A DNA stretch of 34,108 bases, taken from assembly GCA_031270685.1 (NCBI GenBank), contig JAISXA010000230.1, positions 1 through 34,108 on the forward strand, read 5' to 3'. Of this stretch, positions 1 through 34,108 are shown piece after piece (position 1 is the first letter of the stretch; every line of letters begins with the position of its first letter). The stretch is from Planctomycetota bacterium (GTDB lineage Bacteria; Planctomycetota; SZUA-567). Both the position numbers and the translations under genes were made by a program. The notes under the pieces are model-generated. The model did no database searches and was not told where the DNA came from. It worked only from the letters and a program-made list of their open reading frames with translations.

Positions 1-36
1 CGGGAATTATTGCCAGGTCGGCGCTATCGCCCGACC

Positions 37-125
37 TGACGAAAAATCAACCCATTGGTCCGTAAGCGGTAACATCTTTGGAGGAAATCGGGCGGTGGTT
101 GGCCCGATTTTCTCCAAAAGTCCAC
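37..125. repeat. A-family repeat, divergent copy A5 (left part degenerate or outside window)
   Basis: GACGAAAAATCAACCCATTGG...TCTTTGGAGGAAATCGGGCGGTGGTTGGCCCGATTTTCTCCAAAAGTCCAC matches the right part of A2. Confidence 0.75.
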
Positions 126-16842: not shown

Positions 16843-16858
16843 GAGCTGCTCCTATAGG

Positions 16859-17054
16859 GTCGACTTTTAAAGGAAATCGGGCCAACCGCCGCGCGATTTC
16901 CTTTAAAGATTCAACCGCTTTCGTTTTAATGGGTTGTTTTTTCGTCAACTCGACCCAAACCCGCGACGTTGCAAAAAAGCGTGGTTGAAAAGAACGCCCT
17001 GAAACTTTGAAGGAAATCAAACAGCGGTTTGTTTGATTTCCTTCAAAAGTCCAC
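16859..17054. repeat. A-family double-hairpin TIR repeat, copy A1 (full length, 196 bp)
   Basis: TIRs GTCGACTTTTAAAGGAAATC / GATTTCCTTCAAAAGTCCAC; flanked by direct repeat TATAGG (16853-16858 and 17055-17060). Confidence 0.88.
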
Positions 17055-18502
17055 TATAGGGGGAAATGGCCATTAACCGGAGTTTCGCAAATTGGGCGTT
17101 CAAACCGCCGAATGCCCAATTTGTAAAAATCGCGATCCTTGCGGCACAAGCGTTTTTTAACCAGCCGTCCATGCTCCAGGTCGCCGATCGCGTCGCCGTC
17201 CCTCGCCACCACCTTGCCGCGCACCAGGGTAAGCGCCGGCAAGCCCTTGCCTTTGAGCCCGACGAACGCCGAATTCCGGTTCAGATACTTGAGCGAATCC
17301 GCCGTGATCTCCCATTCGCGGTCCGGGTCGAGAATCACCAGATCCGCGTCGAGGCCGGGGCGGATCGCGCCCTTCGCATGGTCGAGGCCGAACGCCCTAG
17401 CCGTGGCGGCGGACGCCCTCGCCAAAATAGACGGCGGGCAGCCGCGCTTGACGACGCCCTCCGAGAATACCGCCTGCATGAGGCTCTGGATGCCGGAAAT
17501 GCCGCCCCATGCCCCGAGCACGCCATGGGTCTTTTCGTCCTTTTCGTCGGCGCGGCACGGAGAATGGTCGGAGGCGAGGGAGCCAAGCGTCCCGTCGAGC
17601 ACGTATTCCCATAATTTTTCGCGCGCGGCGGCGCTGCGCAGGGGCGGCGCGCACTTGAGCATTTCGCCGTCCCGGATTACATCCTCGTCGCAGAACGTCA
17701 GGTAGTGGCCGCAGGTTTCGCCGGTCACGCGCACGCCTTCGCGTCGCGCGGCGCGGATGATCTCGGCGACGTCGGGATGGCTGACATGGCAAATATGGAC
17801 GCGGACGCCCATCTCCCTGGCGAGTTCGATGATGGCCCGGGTGGATATGATTTCCGCCGACGGCGGGCGCGAATCCAGGAAATCCCTCCAGGTCGCGTTC
17901 TTTCCGGCGCGTTCCGCGGCTTCCGCCTCACCGGATTTGATGATGTAATAATCCTCGCAATGGAAGCCGCCCAAGCCGTCGAAACGCTTGAGCACGGCCA
18001 TGGCCCGGCGAACCGTCCCCAGGTCGGTGGATGAATAATCCGGCGACACCGGGGCGATGAATGCCTTGAAGGCGACGACGCCCGCCTGGTCGAGCCCCTC
18101 CAGATCGCCCAAATTGGCCGGAACGAGCCCGCCCCAGAAGGCGTAGTCGACATGGCTGCGGCCGGCGACCGCCTTTTCCTTGGCGGCGAAGATTTCGGCG
18201 TTGGTCAGCGCCGGTTCGTTCTGAAGCGGCATGTCGATAATGGTCGTCACCCCGCCCGCCGCCGCCGCCGCGGAGCCGTGCGGGAAATCCTCGCGCCAGG
18301 TGAAGCCCGGGTCGTTTAGATGGACGTGCGAATCGATCATGCCGGGAAAGACGTATTTGCCGCCGGCGTCGATGGTCTCCGCCGCTCCGGCGTCGGCGAT
18401 GTCGCCGATCGCCGCGATCCTTCCGGCCTTGACCAGTATCCCGCCGGCGAAAACGCCGTCTTCGCAAACTATCCGCGCATTGACGATCTTCAGCTCATCC
18501 AT
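17054..18502 (-). CDS. allB: allantoinase / cyclic amidohydrolase
   Basis: Metal ligands DSHVHLNDPG, carboxylysine context GVVAFKAFIAP, CHVSHPDVAEI, LASDHSPC. The last ~34 codons are encoded by repeat B1 and flanking sequence. Confidence 0.88.
   Translation of the reverse strand: MDELKIVNARIVCEDGVFAGGILVKAGRIAAIGDIADAGAAETIDAGGKYVFPGMIDSHVHLNDPGFTWREDFPHGSAAAAAGGVTTIIDMPLQNEPALTNAEIFAAKEKAVAGRSHVDYAFWGGLVPANLGDLEGLDQAGVVAFKAFIAPVSPDYSSTDLGTVRRAMAVLKRFDGLGGFHCEDYYIIKSGEAEAAERAGKNATWRDFLDSRPPSAEIISTRAIIELAREMGVRVHICHVSHPDVAEIIRAARREGVRVTGETCGHYLTFCDEDVIRDGEMLKCAPPLRSAAAREKLWEYVLDGTLGSLASDHSPCRADEKDEKTHGVLGAWGGISGIQSLMQAVFSEGVVKRGCPPSILARASAATARAFGLDHAKGAIRPGLDADLVILDPDREWEITADSLKYLNRNSAFVGLKGKGLPALTLVRGKVVARDGDAIGDLEHGRLVKKRLCRKDRDFYKLGIRRFERPICETPVNGHFPL
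17077..17157. repeat. B-family hairpin repeat, copy B1 (right side truncated)
   Basis: CCGGAGTTTCGCAAATTGGGCGTTCAAACCGCCGAATGCCCAATTTGTAAAAATCGCGATCCTTGCGGCACAAGCGTTTTTT; matches B2 and B3. Confidence 0.85.
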
Positions 18503-18573
18503 GACGGCTCTCCGAAAAATACGCGCCGGGGGGACGAAGCCGCCCTCCCGGGGCCCTGCCGGAAGTCAGGCGC

Positions 18574-19623
18574 TCAAACCGCGAAAGTGCCCTTGTTGTC
18601 GTAGTTGTTGCGATGGATCACGTCTGATACCAAGTAGGCGTAGATCTCGTCGACGATCTCGATCCCGTCCTTTTCGTAGGCCAATTTGCGCCGCCGGCTG
18701 CCTTCGCCGGGGAAGAGGACCTTGTCGTATCCGGGCGCGGGCTTGACCGCGTTCAGGTCGGCCATGAGCCGGTTGATATTCTTGAGGAACGCTTCCCGGT
18801 CGGTGAAGCGGGCCGGGTCGATGACGATGTGAAGCTGTCCCAGCATACGCATTTCGGTTAGATCGTTGTACATGGAAGTGACGTCCTTGCCGAACGGAAG
18901 TCCGAGAAGCACGCCGGAGAGGATGTCCACCATCATCGCCAGGGCGTAGCCCTTGGGCCCGGCGATGTGATTGAGCGCCGCGACCTGGAAGGGGTCCGTC
19001 GTCGGGTTGCCGTCCTTGTCCACCGCCCAGTCCTTGGGGATCTCCTCGTGGCGGGAGCGGGCGTGGAGGATCTTGCCCCACGCCTGGACCGTTACCGCCA
19101 GATCGACGATGACATGCCTCCCGTCGGCGGACGGCGAGGCGAAGGCGATCGGGTGGGTGCCGAAAAAAGGCTCCGCGCCGCCGTAGGGCACGGCCATCGG
19201 GTCCGATTGGCAGACGGAAATGCCGAGCAGGCCGGCGTCCGCCGCCTGTTCGACGAAATAGGACAGCGCCCCCGAATGCCCCATGCGGCGCATGCCGACG
19301 ACCGAGACGCCCGTTTCCTTGGCGATCCCGATGGCGTGGTCCATGCCGATCTTGGCGACGACCTGGCCGGCGGCATTGTCGCCGTCGAAAACCGCGGAGG
19401 CGGGTCCGGTGCGCTCGAACTTGAAATCGGGCTTGGCGTTGGTGCCGCCCTTGGCGATGCGCTCGGAATAGTATTCCACCCGCATCGCGCCGTGCGAGTG
19501 CACGCCGCGCAGGTCGGCGTGCGCCAGGACGTCGGCGACGATGTCGGCGTGTTCCCGGGAGAGCCCCGCCTTGTGGAGTTTGTCGCTCATCAGTTGGTGC
19601 AGTGTGTTCTTGTCTACGCGCAT
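18574..19623 (-). CDS. allD: ureidoglycolate dehydrogenase
   Basis: Long match to E. coli AllD recalled from memory (DTLHQLM..ADxRGVHSHGAMRVEYYSERIAKGGTN, MGHSGALSYFVEQAA, CQSDPMAVPYGGAEPFFGTHPIAFA, VQAWGKILHARSR, GPKGYALAMMVDILSGVLLGLPFG). Confidence 0.93.
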   Translation of the reverse strand: MRVDKNTLHQLMSDKLHKAGLSREHADIVADVLAHADLRGVHSHGAMRVEYYSERIAKGGTNAKPDFKFERTGPASAVFDGDNAAGQVVAKIGMDHAIGIAKETGVSVVGMRRMGHSGALSYFVEQAADAGLLGISVCQSDPMAVPYGGAEPFFGTHPIAFASPSADGRHVIVDLAVTVQAWGKILHARSRHEEIPKDWAVDKDGNPTTDPFQVAALNHIAGPKGYALAMMVDILSGVLLGLPFGKDVTSMYNDLTEMRMLGQLHIVIDPARFTDREAFLKNINRLMADLNAVKPAPGYDKVLFPGEGSRRRKLAYEKDGIEIVDEIYAYLVSDVIHRNNYDNKGTFAV

Positions 19624-19660
19624 GGTGGGTTCTCCTTGAAAAGGCCACTCCCGGCCACCC

Positions 19661-20686
19661 TCAGTTGACTCCGCAGATCGCGCCCAAAAGCGCCATGCGG
19701 AGCGGCACGCTGTAGCCGATCTGCTTGAAATAGAGCTGGAACTCGGTGTTGTCGATGGCCTGGTCGAACTCGAAGTCGTTGCGGGGCAGGGAGTGCATGA
19801 TGCCGATGGCGCGCCCGGTCTTCTTCTTCAGCTGCTGGAGGTCTTCGAGGGAGAAGTGATGGTTCGCCACCTTCTTCATGAAATCATCGCGGTTCGGATC
19901 CTCCTTCTTCAGCGAACTGCCCGGGAGGTAGAGGAGATCGGCTTTTTCCATCAGCTCGAGGTTGCCCTTCCGGTCGAGGTCGAAATGCTCTTCGTAGCTC
20001 GCGCCGATAGTCTTGAGCTTGTCGATCATCACCTGCGGCGTCCGCAGTTCGCTGGCGCCGGTGTAGACGATGTGCGCGCCCATGCGTGCGGCGCCGAGGG
20101 CGAAGGACTGGCCGGAGCGCGCGCGGGAAAGGTCCGGCGTCGAAATGATGATGCGCATCTCGTCGAGCGGCTTGTCGATCACCCGATAGGCGGTGTAGAT
20201 GTCCAGGAGTCCCTGGGTCGGGTGGGTGACGTGGCCGAAGCCGCCGCTGATGATCGGACAGGCGTTGGGGCCGAGCCGGTCGAGGGCGGCGAAAACCTCG
20301 TCCGCATCGCCGTGGCGCAGCACGAGGACGTCGGCGTATTGCGAAATGACGCGGATGCCGTCGTGGAGGCTTTCGTTCTTGGCCATGGCCGAGTTGTGCA
20401 ACGGGTCCGTTTCGGTGACCACCCTGCCGCCCATGCGGTGCATCGCCGCTTCGTGACTGCAACGGGTGCGGGTGCTGGGCTGGAAGAAAAGGGTGTAGAG
20501 AATCTTGCCCTTGAGGAGATCGAGCTGGGTGCGGGAATAGGGTTCGAGCAGCTTCGCCGCCTCGAAGAGTGCGGCGAGCTGTTCGCGCGTCCAGTCGTCG
20601 AGGAAGATCATGTTCTTGCCCTTCATGTCGGCGGCATTCAGTACGTCCTTGATATTCAAGGGTTTAAGATCGATTGCGAGAGGCAT
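19661..20686 (-). CDS. aspartate-carbamoyltransferase-like transcarbamylase, acceptor unknown
   Basis: Carbamoyl-phosphate motifs FFQPSTRTRCSHEAAMHRMGG, HPTQGLLDIYTAYR, HSLPR, NSAMAKNESL loop; RBS AGGAG before ATG at 20686. Confidence 0.9.
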   Translation of the reverse strand: MPLAIDLKPLNIKDVLNAADMKGKNMIFLDDWTREQLAALFEAAKLLEPYSRTQLDLLKGKILYTLFFQPSTRTRCSHEAAMHRMGGRVVTETDPLHNSAMAKNESLHDGIRVISQYADVLVLRHGDADEVFAALDRLGPNACPIISGGFGHVTHPTQGLLDIYTAYRVIDKPLDEMRIIISTPDLSRARSGQSFALGAARMGAHIVYTGASELRTPQVMIDKLKTIGASYEEHFDLDRKGNLELMEKADLLYLPGSSLKKEDPNRDDFMKKVANHHFSLEDLQQLKKKTGRAIGIMHSLPRNDFEFDQAIDNTEFQLYFKQIGYSVPLRMALLGAICGVN

Positions 20687-20724
20687 TGCTGGTTCTCCTG
20701 TAGTGGTTTGAAACACGGTTATAC

Positions 20725-20858
20725 CTGGAGTTTTGCAAATAGGGCATTCAAACCGCCGAATGCCCTATTTGTAAAAATCGCGATCCTTGCGCCACAAGCG
20801 TTTTTGATTTTTGCAAAATGGCGATTGGCGGTTTGATCGCCATTTTGCAAAACTTCAG
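20725..20858. repeat. B-family double-hairpin TIR repeat, copy B2 (full length, 134 bp)
   Basis: TIRs CTGGAGTTTTGCAAAT / ATTTTGCAAAACTTCAG; two hairpins, second a perfect 13-bp stem GCAAAATGGCGAT/ATCGCCATTTTGC. Confidence 0.87.
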
Positions 20859-20920
20859 ATCCATGTCTTGCCCCGGCCCGCCCCTGGCGGGACAGGGTGG
20901 AACGGGGATGCGATTCTCCA

Positions 20921-21700
20921 TCAGATTTCCACATCCCGGTGGCAGTCCTTGGAGTAGATGTACGAGAGGCGGCCGCGACCGGTGCCGTAGCACGCCTGCT
21001 TGGTGTAGGGGCCGAACCAGAGGAAATCCTCGGGCTGCACGGAGAGCCAGTCGTCGTCGAGAAGGTACATGCCCTGGCCCTCGTAGATGTACGCCCCGTG
21101 CTCCTGGACGTGCGTTTCGATGAACGGGTGGCAGCCGCCGGGGGCGAACGAAAGGGTGTGCATGTTCATGTCGTAGGTCTCGTCGACCGGCAGGAGGTCG
21201 CGGACAAAGACGTTTTCCATCTCGTCGTAGCTGCGCTCCTTGATGTCGTTGAGGTTGCCGAACACCGGCGCCGGAACGCGCGCGGGATCGGGATGCGGGA
21301 TATAACGTTGCTTGTACAAAAGGAAGCGGAGCGGTTTCGCGCCGACGTTCTTGAAGTGGATGCCCTTGCCCGCGGGCGCATAAGCGTAGCCGCCCTGGCC
21401 GAAGGTCTCGGTCCTGCCGCCCACGGCCAGTTCGAGCTCGCCCTCGCCGTCCAGGAAGTGGATGAAGGTCTCGACGCCCTCGGCGGCGCCGAATGCGCTT
21501 TTCGCGCAGCCGCCGCCGGCCTGCGCCGTGCCGATGTACTGCACGAAGCCGGCGCCGATCTTGGGGGTGCAGAGGATGGTGGTCCGGCAATTTTCCAGGC
21601 CCGGAATGACGTTGAACACCCGGCCCTCCGGGGGAACGAGGGCATAGATTCCCGGCTTGACCACGGCACGGGTTTTCAGGGGGCCATCGGGATACGGCAT
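20921..21700 (-). CDS. allE: (S)-ureidoglycine aminohydrolase
   Basis: Bicupin matching AllE: VVKPGIYALVPPEG..FNVIPGLENCRTTILCTPKIGAGFVQY, DMNMHTLSFAPGGCHPFIETHVQEHGAYI, C-terminus SYIYSKDCHRDVEI. Confidence 0.94.
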   Translation of the reverse strand: MPYPDGPLKTRAVVKPGIYALVPPEGRVFNVIPGLENCRTTILCTPKIGAGFVQYIGTAQAGGGCAKSAFGAAEGVETFIHFLDGEGELELAVGGRTETFGQGGYAYAPAGKGIHFKNVGAKPLRFLLYKQRYIPHPDPARVPAPVFGNLNDIKERSYDEMENVFVRDLLPVDETYDMNMHTLSFAPGGCHPFIETHVQEHGAYIYEGQGMYLLDDDWLSVQPEDFLWFGPYTKQACYGTGRGRLSYIYSKDCHRDVEI

Positions 21701-21786
21701 GACATTTCTCCTAATAAAAGAACGACACCAGAACGACACCATTTTGCGCCGGCGGCACTTGTCGCCTTCTTCGCGAATTGCTTTGG

Positions 21787-21797
21787 TGGTATTACCA
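21787..21797. promoter_or_regulatory. TGGTATTACCA palindrome, candidate FadR-family operator upstream of allE
   Basis: Fits the FadR-family consensus tnGTnnnACna; identical to 33951-33961; ends 87 bp before the allE ATG. Confidence 0.6.
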
Positions 21798-21826
21798 ATA
21801 CGGCAAATAAAAAACGGTCCTGCATC

Positions 21827-22023
21827 GTGTACTTTTGAAGGAAACCAAACAAACCGCTGTTTGATTTCCTTCAAAGTTTCAGGGCGTTCGTTTCAACCAC
21901 GCTTTTTTTACAACGTCGCGGGTTTGGGTCGAGTTGACGAAAAAACAACCCATTGAAACGAAAGCGGTTGAATCTTTAAAGGAAATCGGGCGGCGGTTAA
22001 CCCGATTTCCTTTAAAAGTCGAC
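21827..22023. repeat. A-family double-hairpin TIR repeat, copy A2 (full length, inverted relative to A1)
   Basis: GTGTACTTTTGAAGGAAACC ... GATTTCCTTTAAAAGTCGAC; central segment is the reverse complement of A1. Confidence 0.88.
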
Positions 22024-28812: not shown

Positions 28813-28851
28813 GTCCCCTTCTTCCGTTTCTTTCTCTTGTCGGCGATAGAA

Positions 28852-29098
28852 CCGGATTTTTGCAACGTGGGCATTCACACCGCCGAATTCCCGCTTTGTA
28901 AAAATCGCGTTCCTTGCGGCACAAGCGTTTTTACTTTTTGCGAAGTGGTCGACTTTTAAAGGAAATCGGGCCAACCGCCGCCCGATTTCCTTTAAAGATT
29001 CAACCGCTTTCGTTTCAATGGGTTGTTTTTTCGTCAACTCGAACCAAACCCGCGACGTTGCAAAAAAACGTAGTTGAAACGAACGCCCTAAACTCCAG
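28852..29098. repeat. composite B3/A3 repeat (truncated A element bounded by B-type ends)
   Basis: B-type left part 28852-28944, A-type 28948-29092, ending in AAACTCCAG (reverse complement of the B terminus CTGGAGTTT). Confidence 0.75.
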
Positions 29099-33990: not shown

Positions 33991-34034
33991 GTGGACTTTT
34001 GGAGGAAATCGGGCCAACCGCCGCCCGATTTCCT
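33991..34034. repeat. A-family repeat, copy A4 (one terminal hairpin only)
   Basis: GTGGACTTTTGGAGGAAATCGGGCCAACCGCCGCCCGATTTCCT, then unrelated sequence. Confidence 0.75.
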
Positions 34035-34108
34035 GTTATGAAGTCTGGTGTCAAGAGGATATAATCGTGATTCAGAAAAAGCCGACACCTCACGTTTATT
34101 AAAGGAAA

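Follow-up and report, generated by a model that had tools for sequence, protein, structure and literature searches.

A dense family of short MITE-type elements with terminal hairpins in a planctomycete genome

Introduction

Bacterial miniature inverted-repeat transposable elements (MITEs) such as Correia/NEMIS, RUP, ERIC, Chunjie, and QMITE2 are 100–250 bp long, carry no gene, and possess terminal inverted repeats (TIRs), a target duplication, and strong secondary structure (PMC10969869, PMC2229807). ERIC, for comparison, reaches 711 copies in Photorhabdus luminescens (a review among the same two sources). The Tn3-derived inverted-repeat miniature elements (TIMEs) are nonautonomous, measure ∼262 bp, show 5-bp duplications, and occur in mosaic and composite forms (PMC4133298). 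Repetitive extragenic palindromes (REPs) have been reported from Planctomycetes (PMC3733652). Here we describe family A, a family of ∼196-bp hairpin elements noticed in a 34,108-nucleotide stretch of DNA from a Planctomycetota bacterium (GenBank assembly GCA_031270685.1, contig JAISXA010000230.1), which is referred to as the window. The family is new, but the element belongs to a known kind, of which it is a typical representative with an unusually high density.

The window corresponds to contig C2 in a draft genome (G000) that comprises 3.18 Mb in 283 contigs and is 88.65% complete. We sampled 1.18 Mb of this genome in detail, whereas the other 63% was searched by pattern only.

Results

Copy number and organization of family A

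Both ends of the element carry a 20-bp TIR, GT[C/G]GACTTTTRRAGGAAATC, which doubles as the outer arm of a hairpin. The pattern GTSGACTTTTRRAGGAAATC, with one mismatch at most, occurs at 472 sites in G000, and the reversed pattern used as a control at none. The family is thus larger than the at least five copies in 34 kb counted in an earlier note on the window. The detailed sample contains 273 element matches (97 of full length), which are dispersed and have flanks unrelated to one another. On contigs C221–C240, which were taken regardless of repeat content, 40 elements in 183 kb correspond to 218 per Mb and 2.74% of the DNA, with a GC content of 47% compared with 62.5% for the contigs.

Seventy-two full copies fall into two subfamilies, A1 (196 bp, n = 32, mean identity 0.905) and A2 (198 bp, n = 40, mean identity 0.909), which have TIRs and hairpin loops in common but differ in their interiors. 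Nearest pairs within a subfamily are 97–98% identical. With these values, a mean identity of ∼91%, and a duplication still recognizable in only about half of the copies, the proposal that the family was recently active holds only in part.

Evidence for transposition

Exact duplications of 5–8 bp flank 31 of the 74 full copies with readable flanks (5 bp in 23 copies, 6 bp in 6, and 7 bp and 8 bp in one copy each), and in a further 8 copies the flanks match at 4 of 5 bases. Under shuffled pairing of the flanks, an exact duplication is found in 0.7%. The duplications prefer T as their first and A as their last base.

Unfilled sites, for which the earlier note had advised a search, were found at several loci. 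On contig C142, a copy is inserted within a palindromic repeat (repeat B) with CGAAT on either side, whereas CGAAT occurs once in uninterrupted B copies, among them that at 17076–17156 of the window and a copy in G001, a genome of the same genus. Contigs C3 and C236 have 4.3 kb in common at ∼89–90% identity, with the element present in C3 and absent from C236; the two contigs (L111, L254) are either paralogous or variants from different strains within the bin. At the C108 site, the orthologous intergenic stretch of G001 is short and lacks the element. Repeat B itself is a second, unrelated hairpin repeat (ACTGGAGTTTTGCAAATTGGGCATTCAAACCGCCGAATGCCCAATTTGTAAAAATC...) with 154 matches in the 1.18 Mb, located in the window at 17076–17156, 20725–20804, and 28851–28931, and A elements are sometimes inserted into or beside it.

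Two copies lie in genes: one interrupts an IS1380 transposase gene (C238), and the other, a single hairpin, is located where a LacI-type regulator gene starts (C46:12110; L061:210–270). The description of the copies as all intergenic is therefore correct for the window, judged by its Pfam-supported genes, but not for the genome. Other solo ends (e.g. L055:1501) seem to read in frame through coding sequence, like Rickettsia palindromic elements.

Folding and covariation of the terminal hairpins

As single-stranded DNA, the element folds into two terminal hairpins and a weaker central one (z −5.2), and as RNA into one long hairpin (z −7.0). A hairpin at each end had been proposed from the window, and both show compensatory changes across copies. 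In 30 copies, the hairpins are paired in 97.7% of cells, and 9 pairs have changed on both sides, in 62 cells. This covariation exceeds 500 of 500 shuffles, although counts of this type can be inflated by kinship of the sequences, and the difference between A1 and A2 accounts for much of the signal. Matching changes in both arms also occur within single copies. The structure of the hairpins probably matters for mobility or persistence.

Single hairpins and mosaic forms

Fifty copies are single hairpins of 55–57 bp with outer ends on both sides. Exact duplications flank 9 of these 50, which is less frequent than in full copies (31/74, p = 0.006).

Larger derivatives were also found. Mosaics of 81, 70, and 94 bp (L138:14156–14236, L145:2918–2987, and L137:1520–1613) consist of a duplicated partial left arm before a complete 56-bp hairpin, and target duplications flank each mosaic as a whole. 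They look like nested insertions that were remobilized by the outermost pair of ends. In a 287-bp element, the left part is joined to another right arm, and two ∼283-bp near-palindromes (L118:361–643 and L120:337–620) are head-to-head double left halves.

Search for the mobilizing transposase

In line with the earlier note, which had seen no transposase in the window, none is encoded between paired element ends in the 1.18 Mb, including TIR pairs with a duplication at insertion sequence (IS)-like spacing. The best IS-sized pair of ends (C46:12110–14390) was rejected as an autonomous element; it encloses a LacI-type regulator and NadA (names from translations) and shows no duplication. Other end pairs spaced by >300 bp look like chance.

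The transposases of G000 are of the IS1380, IS701, IS4, and ISAs1 types (the last named from its translation), and none is flanked by element ends. IS701 possesses the TIR CACTACAA and the duplication TTAA, and its ends are unrelated to those of the element. Near the genes of IS4 and the remaining DDE_Tnp_1 loci we found no matching TIR, although contig ends truncate several of these loci and the termini of the IS4 and ISAs1-type copies are not resolved. IS1634 was discarded as a parent: an intact copy in the related genome G012 has CGTAGTGCCAC-type ends and another leader, and the family is absent from G000. A 19-bp stretch that differs from the A1 spacer at one position and lies ∼20 bp upstream of the start codon of a degenerate IS1634 transposase gene (L280:288–306, G012:C205) is taken to be either a piece of the repeat or a chance resemblance. 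Catalytic domains of the rve type (IS3/IS21/IS30/IS481, Tn7/Mu) and of Tn3 are absent from the four genomes that carry the element. The Y1 domain (PF01797, Y1_Tnp), searched in G000 only, gave no match in that 88.65% complete draft.

Among 60 relatives searched, an IS1380 transposase is confined to G000 and G012, which also contain more sites of the element than any other genome. On four plasmids, copies of IS1380 are flanked by 5-bp T/A-rich duplications, the same length as those of the element, and end in CC[C/G]G[A/T]CTTATTCA, in which SGACTTNT is in register with the element ends. The element begins GT[C/G]GACTTTT, so that the in-register match is partial. For IS1247, a direct repeat of 5 bp is listed (PMC3281130).

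Distribution among relatives

Four of the 16 genomes of the taxonomic family contain sites, namely G000 (472), G012 (92), G001 (13), and G014 (9), and the other 12 contain none. Outside this family, 376 sampled genomes of the phylum yielded one chance-like match. Carriers among the matches listed in a GTDB scan are the Planctomycetota metagenome-assembled genomes Nc350_bin29, Nc350_bin215, and Ct408_bin81. Five single-match genomes of other phyla among these matches were disregarded, because ∼4 are expected by chance for a 20-mer pattern. In the plasmids, phages, and viral contigs searched, no match to the element was found.

The two subfamilies differ in their distribution. Only A2-like copies were found in G001, where full copies are 84–89% identical to the consensus. 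G012 and G014 contain almost only A1-like copies, with ∼91% identity. The identity of alignable DNA to G000 is 76% for G001 and 71% for G012.

Copies in the window

The two full copies of the window were placed correctly to the base at 16859–17054 (plus strand) and, inverted, at 21827–22023 (minus strand). The former is an A1 element of 196 bp between an amino-acid-kinase-family gene (start 16842, minus strand) and an amidohydrolase gene (17057–18502, minus strand), and is flanked by the target-site duplication TATAGG (16853–16858 and 17055–17060). Its left terminal hairpin (16866–16907, plus strand) has a 14-bp stem plus 2 pairs and its right one (17006–17047, plus strand) an 18-bp stem, each containing the inner part of the respective TIR. 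The inverted copy, an A1 element of 197 bp, is located between genes for a GntR/FCD regulator and a cupin, and its 5-bp duplication is degraded (GATGT/GATGC).

All three partial copies were refound with a profile built from full copies, two of them with altered limits. The A1 copy at 28948–29092 (plus strand), which lacks the right hairpin (model positions 1–148) and lies upstream of an L-lactate permease gene, stands as described. The A2-type copy previously given as 37–125 spans 1–125 (minus strand, model positions 1–125); it is cut by the contig end and adjoins the stop codon of an RseC/MucC-like gene. The third, a left hairpin that has lost its inner end, extends over 33991–34043 (plus strand) rather than to 34034. 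The conserved spacer that had been quoted for the family is found only in the 196-bp subfamily (16859, 21827, and 28948) and not at 1–125, a sequence that matches the 198-bp subfamily with its different interior.

Across the window, 14 matches to the TIR core were counted compared with 0.57 expected by chance, and 0 of 100 shuffles gave as many as 14. As the left end of the window lies inside an element and its last 15 bases (34094–34108) resemble the TIR, it was probably the repeats that caused the contig to break. On C221–C240, 5 of 38 contig ends lie in an element or ≤30 bp from one.

Discussion

Family A is short and free of a transposase, possesses fixed TIR ends and a target duplication, and has inserted independently at sites that are unfilled elsewhere. 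We conclude, with a probability of about 0.88, that it consists of nonautonomous, TIR-ended transposons (MITEs) moved in trans by a DDE-type transposase. Hundreds of copies, dispersed and with exact termini and unrelated flanks, bear out the earlier proposal that the family is MITE-like and mobilized in trans, and the copies are neither confined to the window nor parts of one duplicated block. Mobilization in trans follows from the lack of coding capacity between paired ends. The transposase would cut at the GT...AC ends, and insertion with a 5-bp stagger would give rise to the 5-bp (sometimes 6-bp) T/A-rich duplication. Two observations weigh against this conclusion: about half of the full copies lack a recognizable duplication, and no autonomous element with matching ends was found in any genome searched, although the draft assembly, with its breaks inside some copies, may lack one that the organism has. 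Many bacterial MITEs have no known autonomous partner. The stable, covarying hairpins and the position of the window copies near gene ends would also suit nonmobile repeats with a cellular job (terminators, mRNA stabilizers, or protein-binding sites) that were spread by recombination. The target duplications, the unfilled sites, the insertion in a transposase gene, and the patchy occurrence among relatives make this very improbable, whereas a cellular use acquired secondarily after insertion is possible. Equally improbable is a REP/REPIN-type system, in which single and paired hairpins would be spread by a Y1 (RAYT) transposase, for which the earlier note had advised a search, with GTSGAC in the role of the GTAG foot. 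The short conserved 5′ foot beside a hairpin, the singlets and inverted doublets, and the hundreds of copies fit such a system, but both unit ends are fixed, and Y1 single-strand transposition makes no target duplication. Because exact 5-bp duplications are present and no Y1 transposase was found in G000, we do not assign family A to the REPIN/RAYT systems.

If the family is moved by a DDE-type enzyme, two questions concern its unit of transposition and the identity of the enzyme. The 56-bp copies probably arise mainly by deletion. In the full element, an outer arm and the inner arm across from it are 14-bp direct repeats of each other, so that a deletion between arms (outer left/inner right or inner left/outer right) yields a single hairpin in place. 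Consistent with this origin, the 56-bp copies keep the GTC/GTG asymmetry between their ends (27:20 versus 9:32, p = 0.001), and some of them have predicted hybrid arms. It is doubtful that the 56-bp hairpins are independently mobile and the 196-bp element a composite of two. Such mobility would account for the 9 exact duplications in 50 copies (∼1 expected at a looser 4/5 criterion), for duplications in the same size class in another genus, and for the resemblance of the inner arms to decayed TIRs; the kept asymmetry, the hybrid arms, and the rarer duplications argue against it. Still less likely is the specific form in which the 56-bp hairpin, approximately two terminal repeats back to back, is a DDE-transposable unit and the 196-bp element a composite with decayed inner ends. 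In that case, a synapse on 56 bp of DNA would need an unusual, perhaps extruded-hairpin, substrate. As to the enzyme, an IS1380-family transposase is the leading candidate, but only as a tentative lead and not as a family assignment, because the terminal dinucleotides differ (CC versus GT). Terminal bases normally matter to transposases, and the co-occurrence rests on two genomes, both of which count against this candidate. We lean slightly toward a mobilizer from a transposase family without a recognizable gene in these drafts, either unclassified or lost at contig breaks. The unrelated ends of IS701 and IS1634, the failure to find any transposase with matching ends, and the absence of rve and Tn3 domains from the four carriers favor such an enzyme; nothing speaks directly against it, but of the families found, IS1380 alone combines 5-bp duplications with ends that are similar in part. 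Finally, as A1 copies are ∼91% identical across genera whose alignable DNA is only ∼71% identical, the sequences suggest that A1 moved horizontally between genera, with strong constraint as the alternative.

Family A is an example of a dense MITE load, ∼2.7% of the sampled DNA, in a planctomycete lineage that is uncultured. Its two subfamilies have different histories, one being present also in a same-genus relative and the other across genera. Because both terminal hairpins show compensatory changes, the family lends itself to the question of whether hairpins in DNA have a role in mobility of the DDE type. The family is also a warning that such genomes assemble badly, with contigs, including that of the window, ending inside copies.

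Outside one planctomycete family, we found nothing to which the sequence of the element is related. With REP/REPIN elements and their RAYT transposases, family A has in common hairpin units that occur as singlets and inverted pairs and a short foot at the hairpin base, but it differs by its target duplications and a genome in which no Y1 transposase was found. Like the TIMEs, it is nonautonomous, generates 5-bp duplications, and forms mosaic and composite derivatives (PMC4133298); the TIMEs, however, possess 38-bp Tn3 ends, and the four carriers lack a Tn3 transposase domain. The IS1380 family (NF033539) resembles it in the 5-bp T/A-rich duplications and the in-register SGACTTNT, whereas IS1380 ends begin with CC instead of GT, and no element encodes or surrounds an IS1380 gene. 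Family A agrees best with the bacterial MITEs, with which it shares size, lack of a gene, TIRs, duplication, and strong secondary structure as well as numerous copies, both full and truncated (PMC10969869, PMC2229807), and from which it is set apart by a 5-bp duplication (not TA), a covarying hairpin at each end, and a density of ∼218 per Mb.

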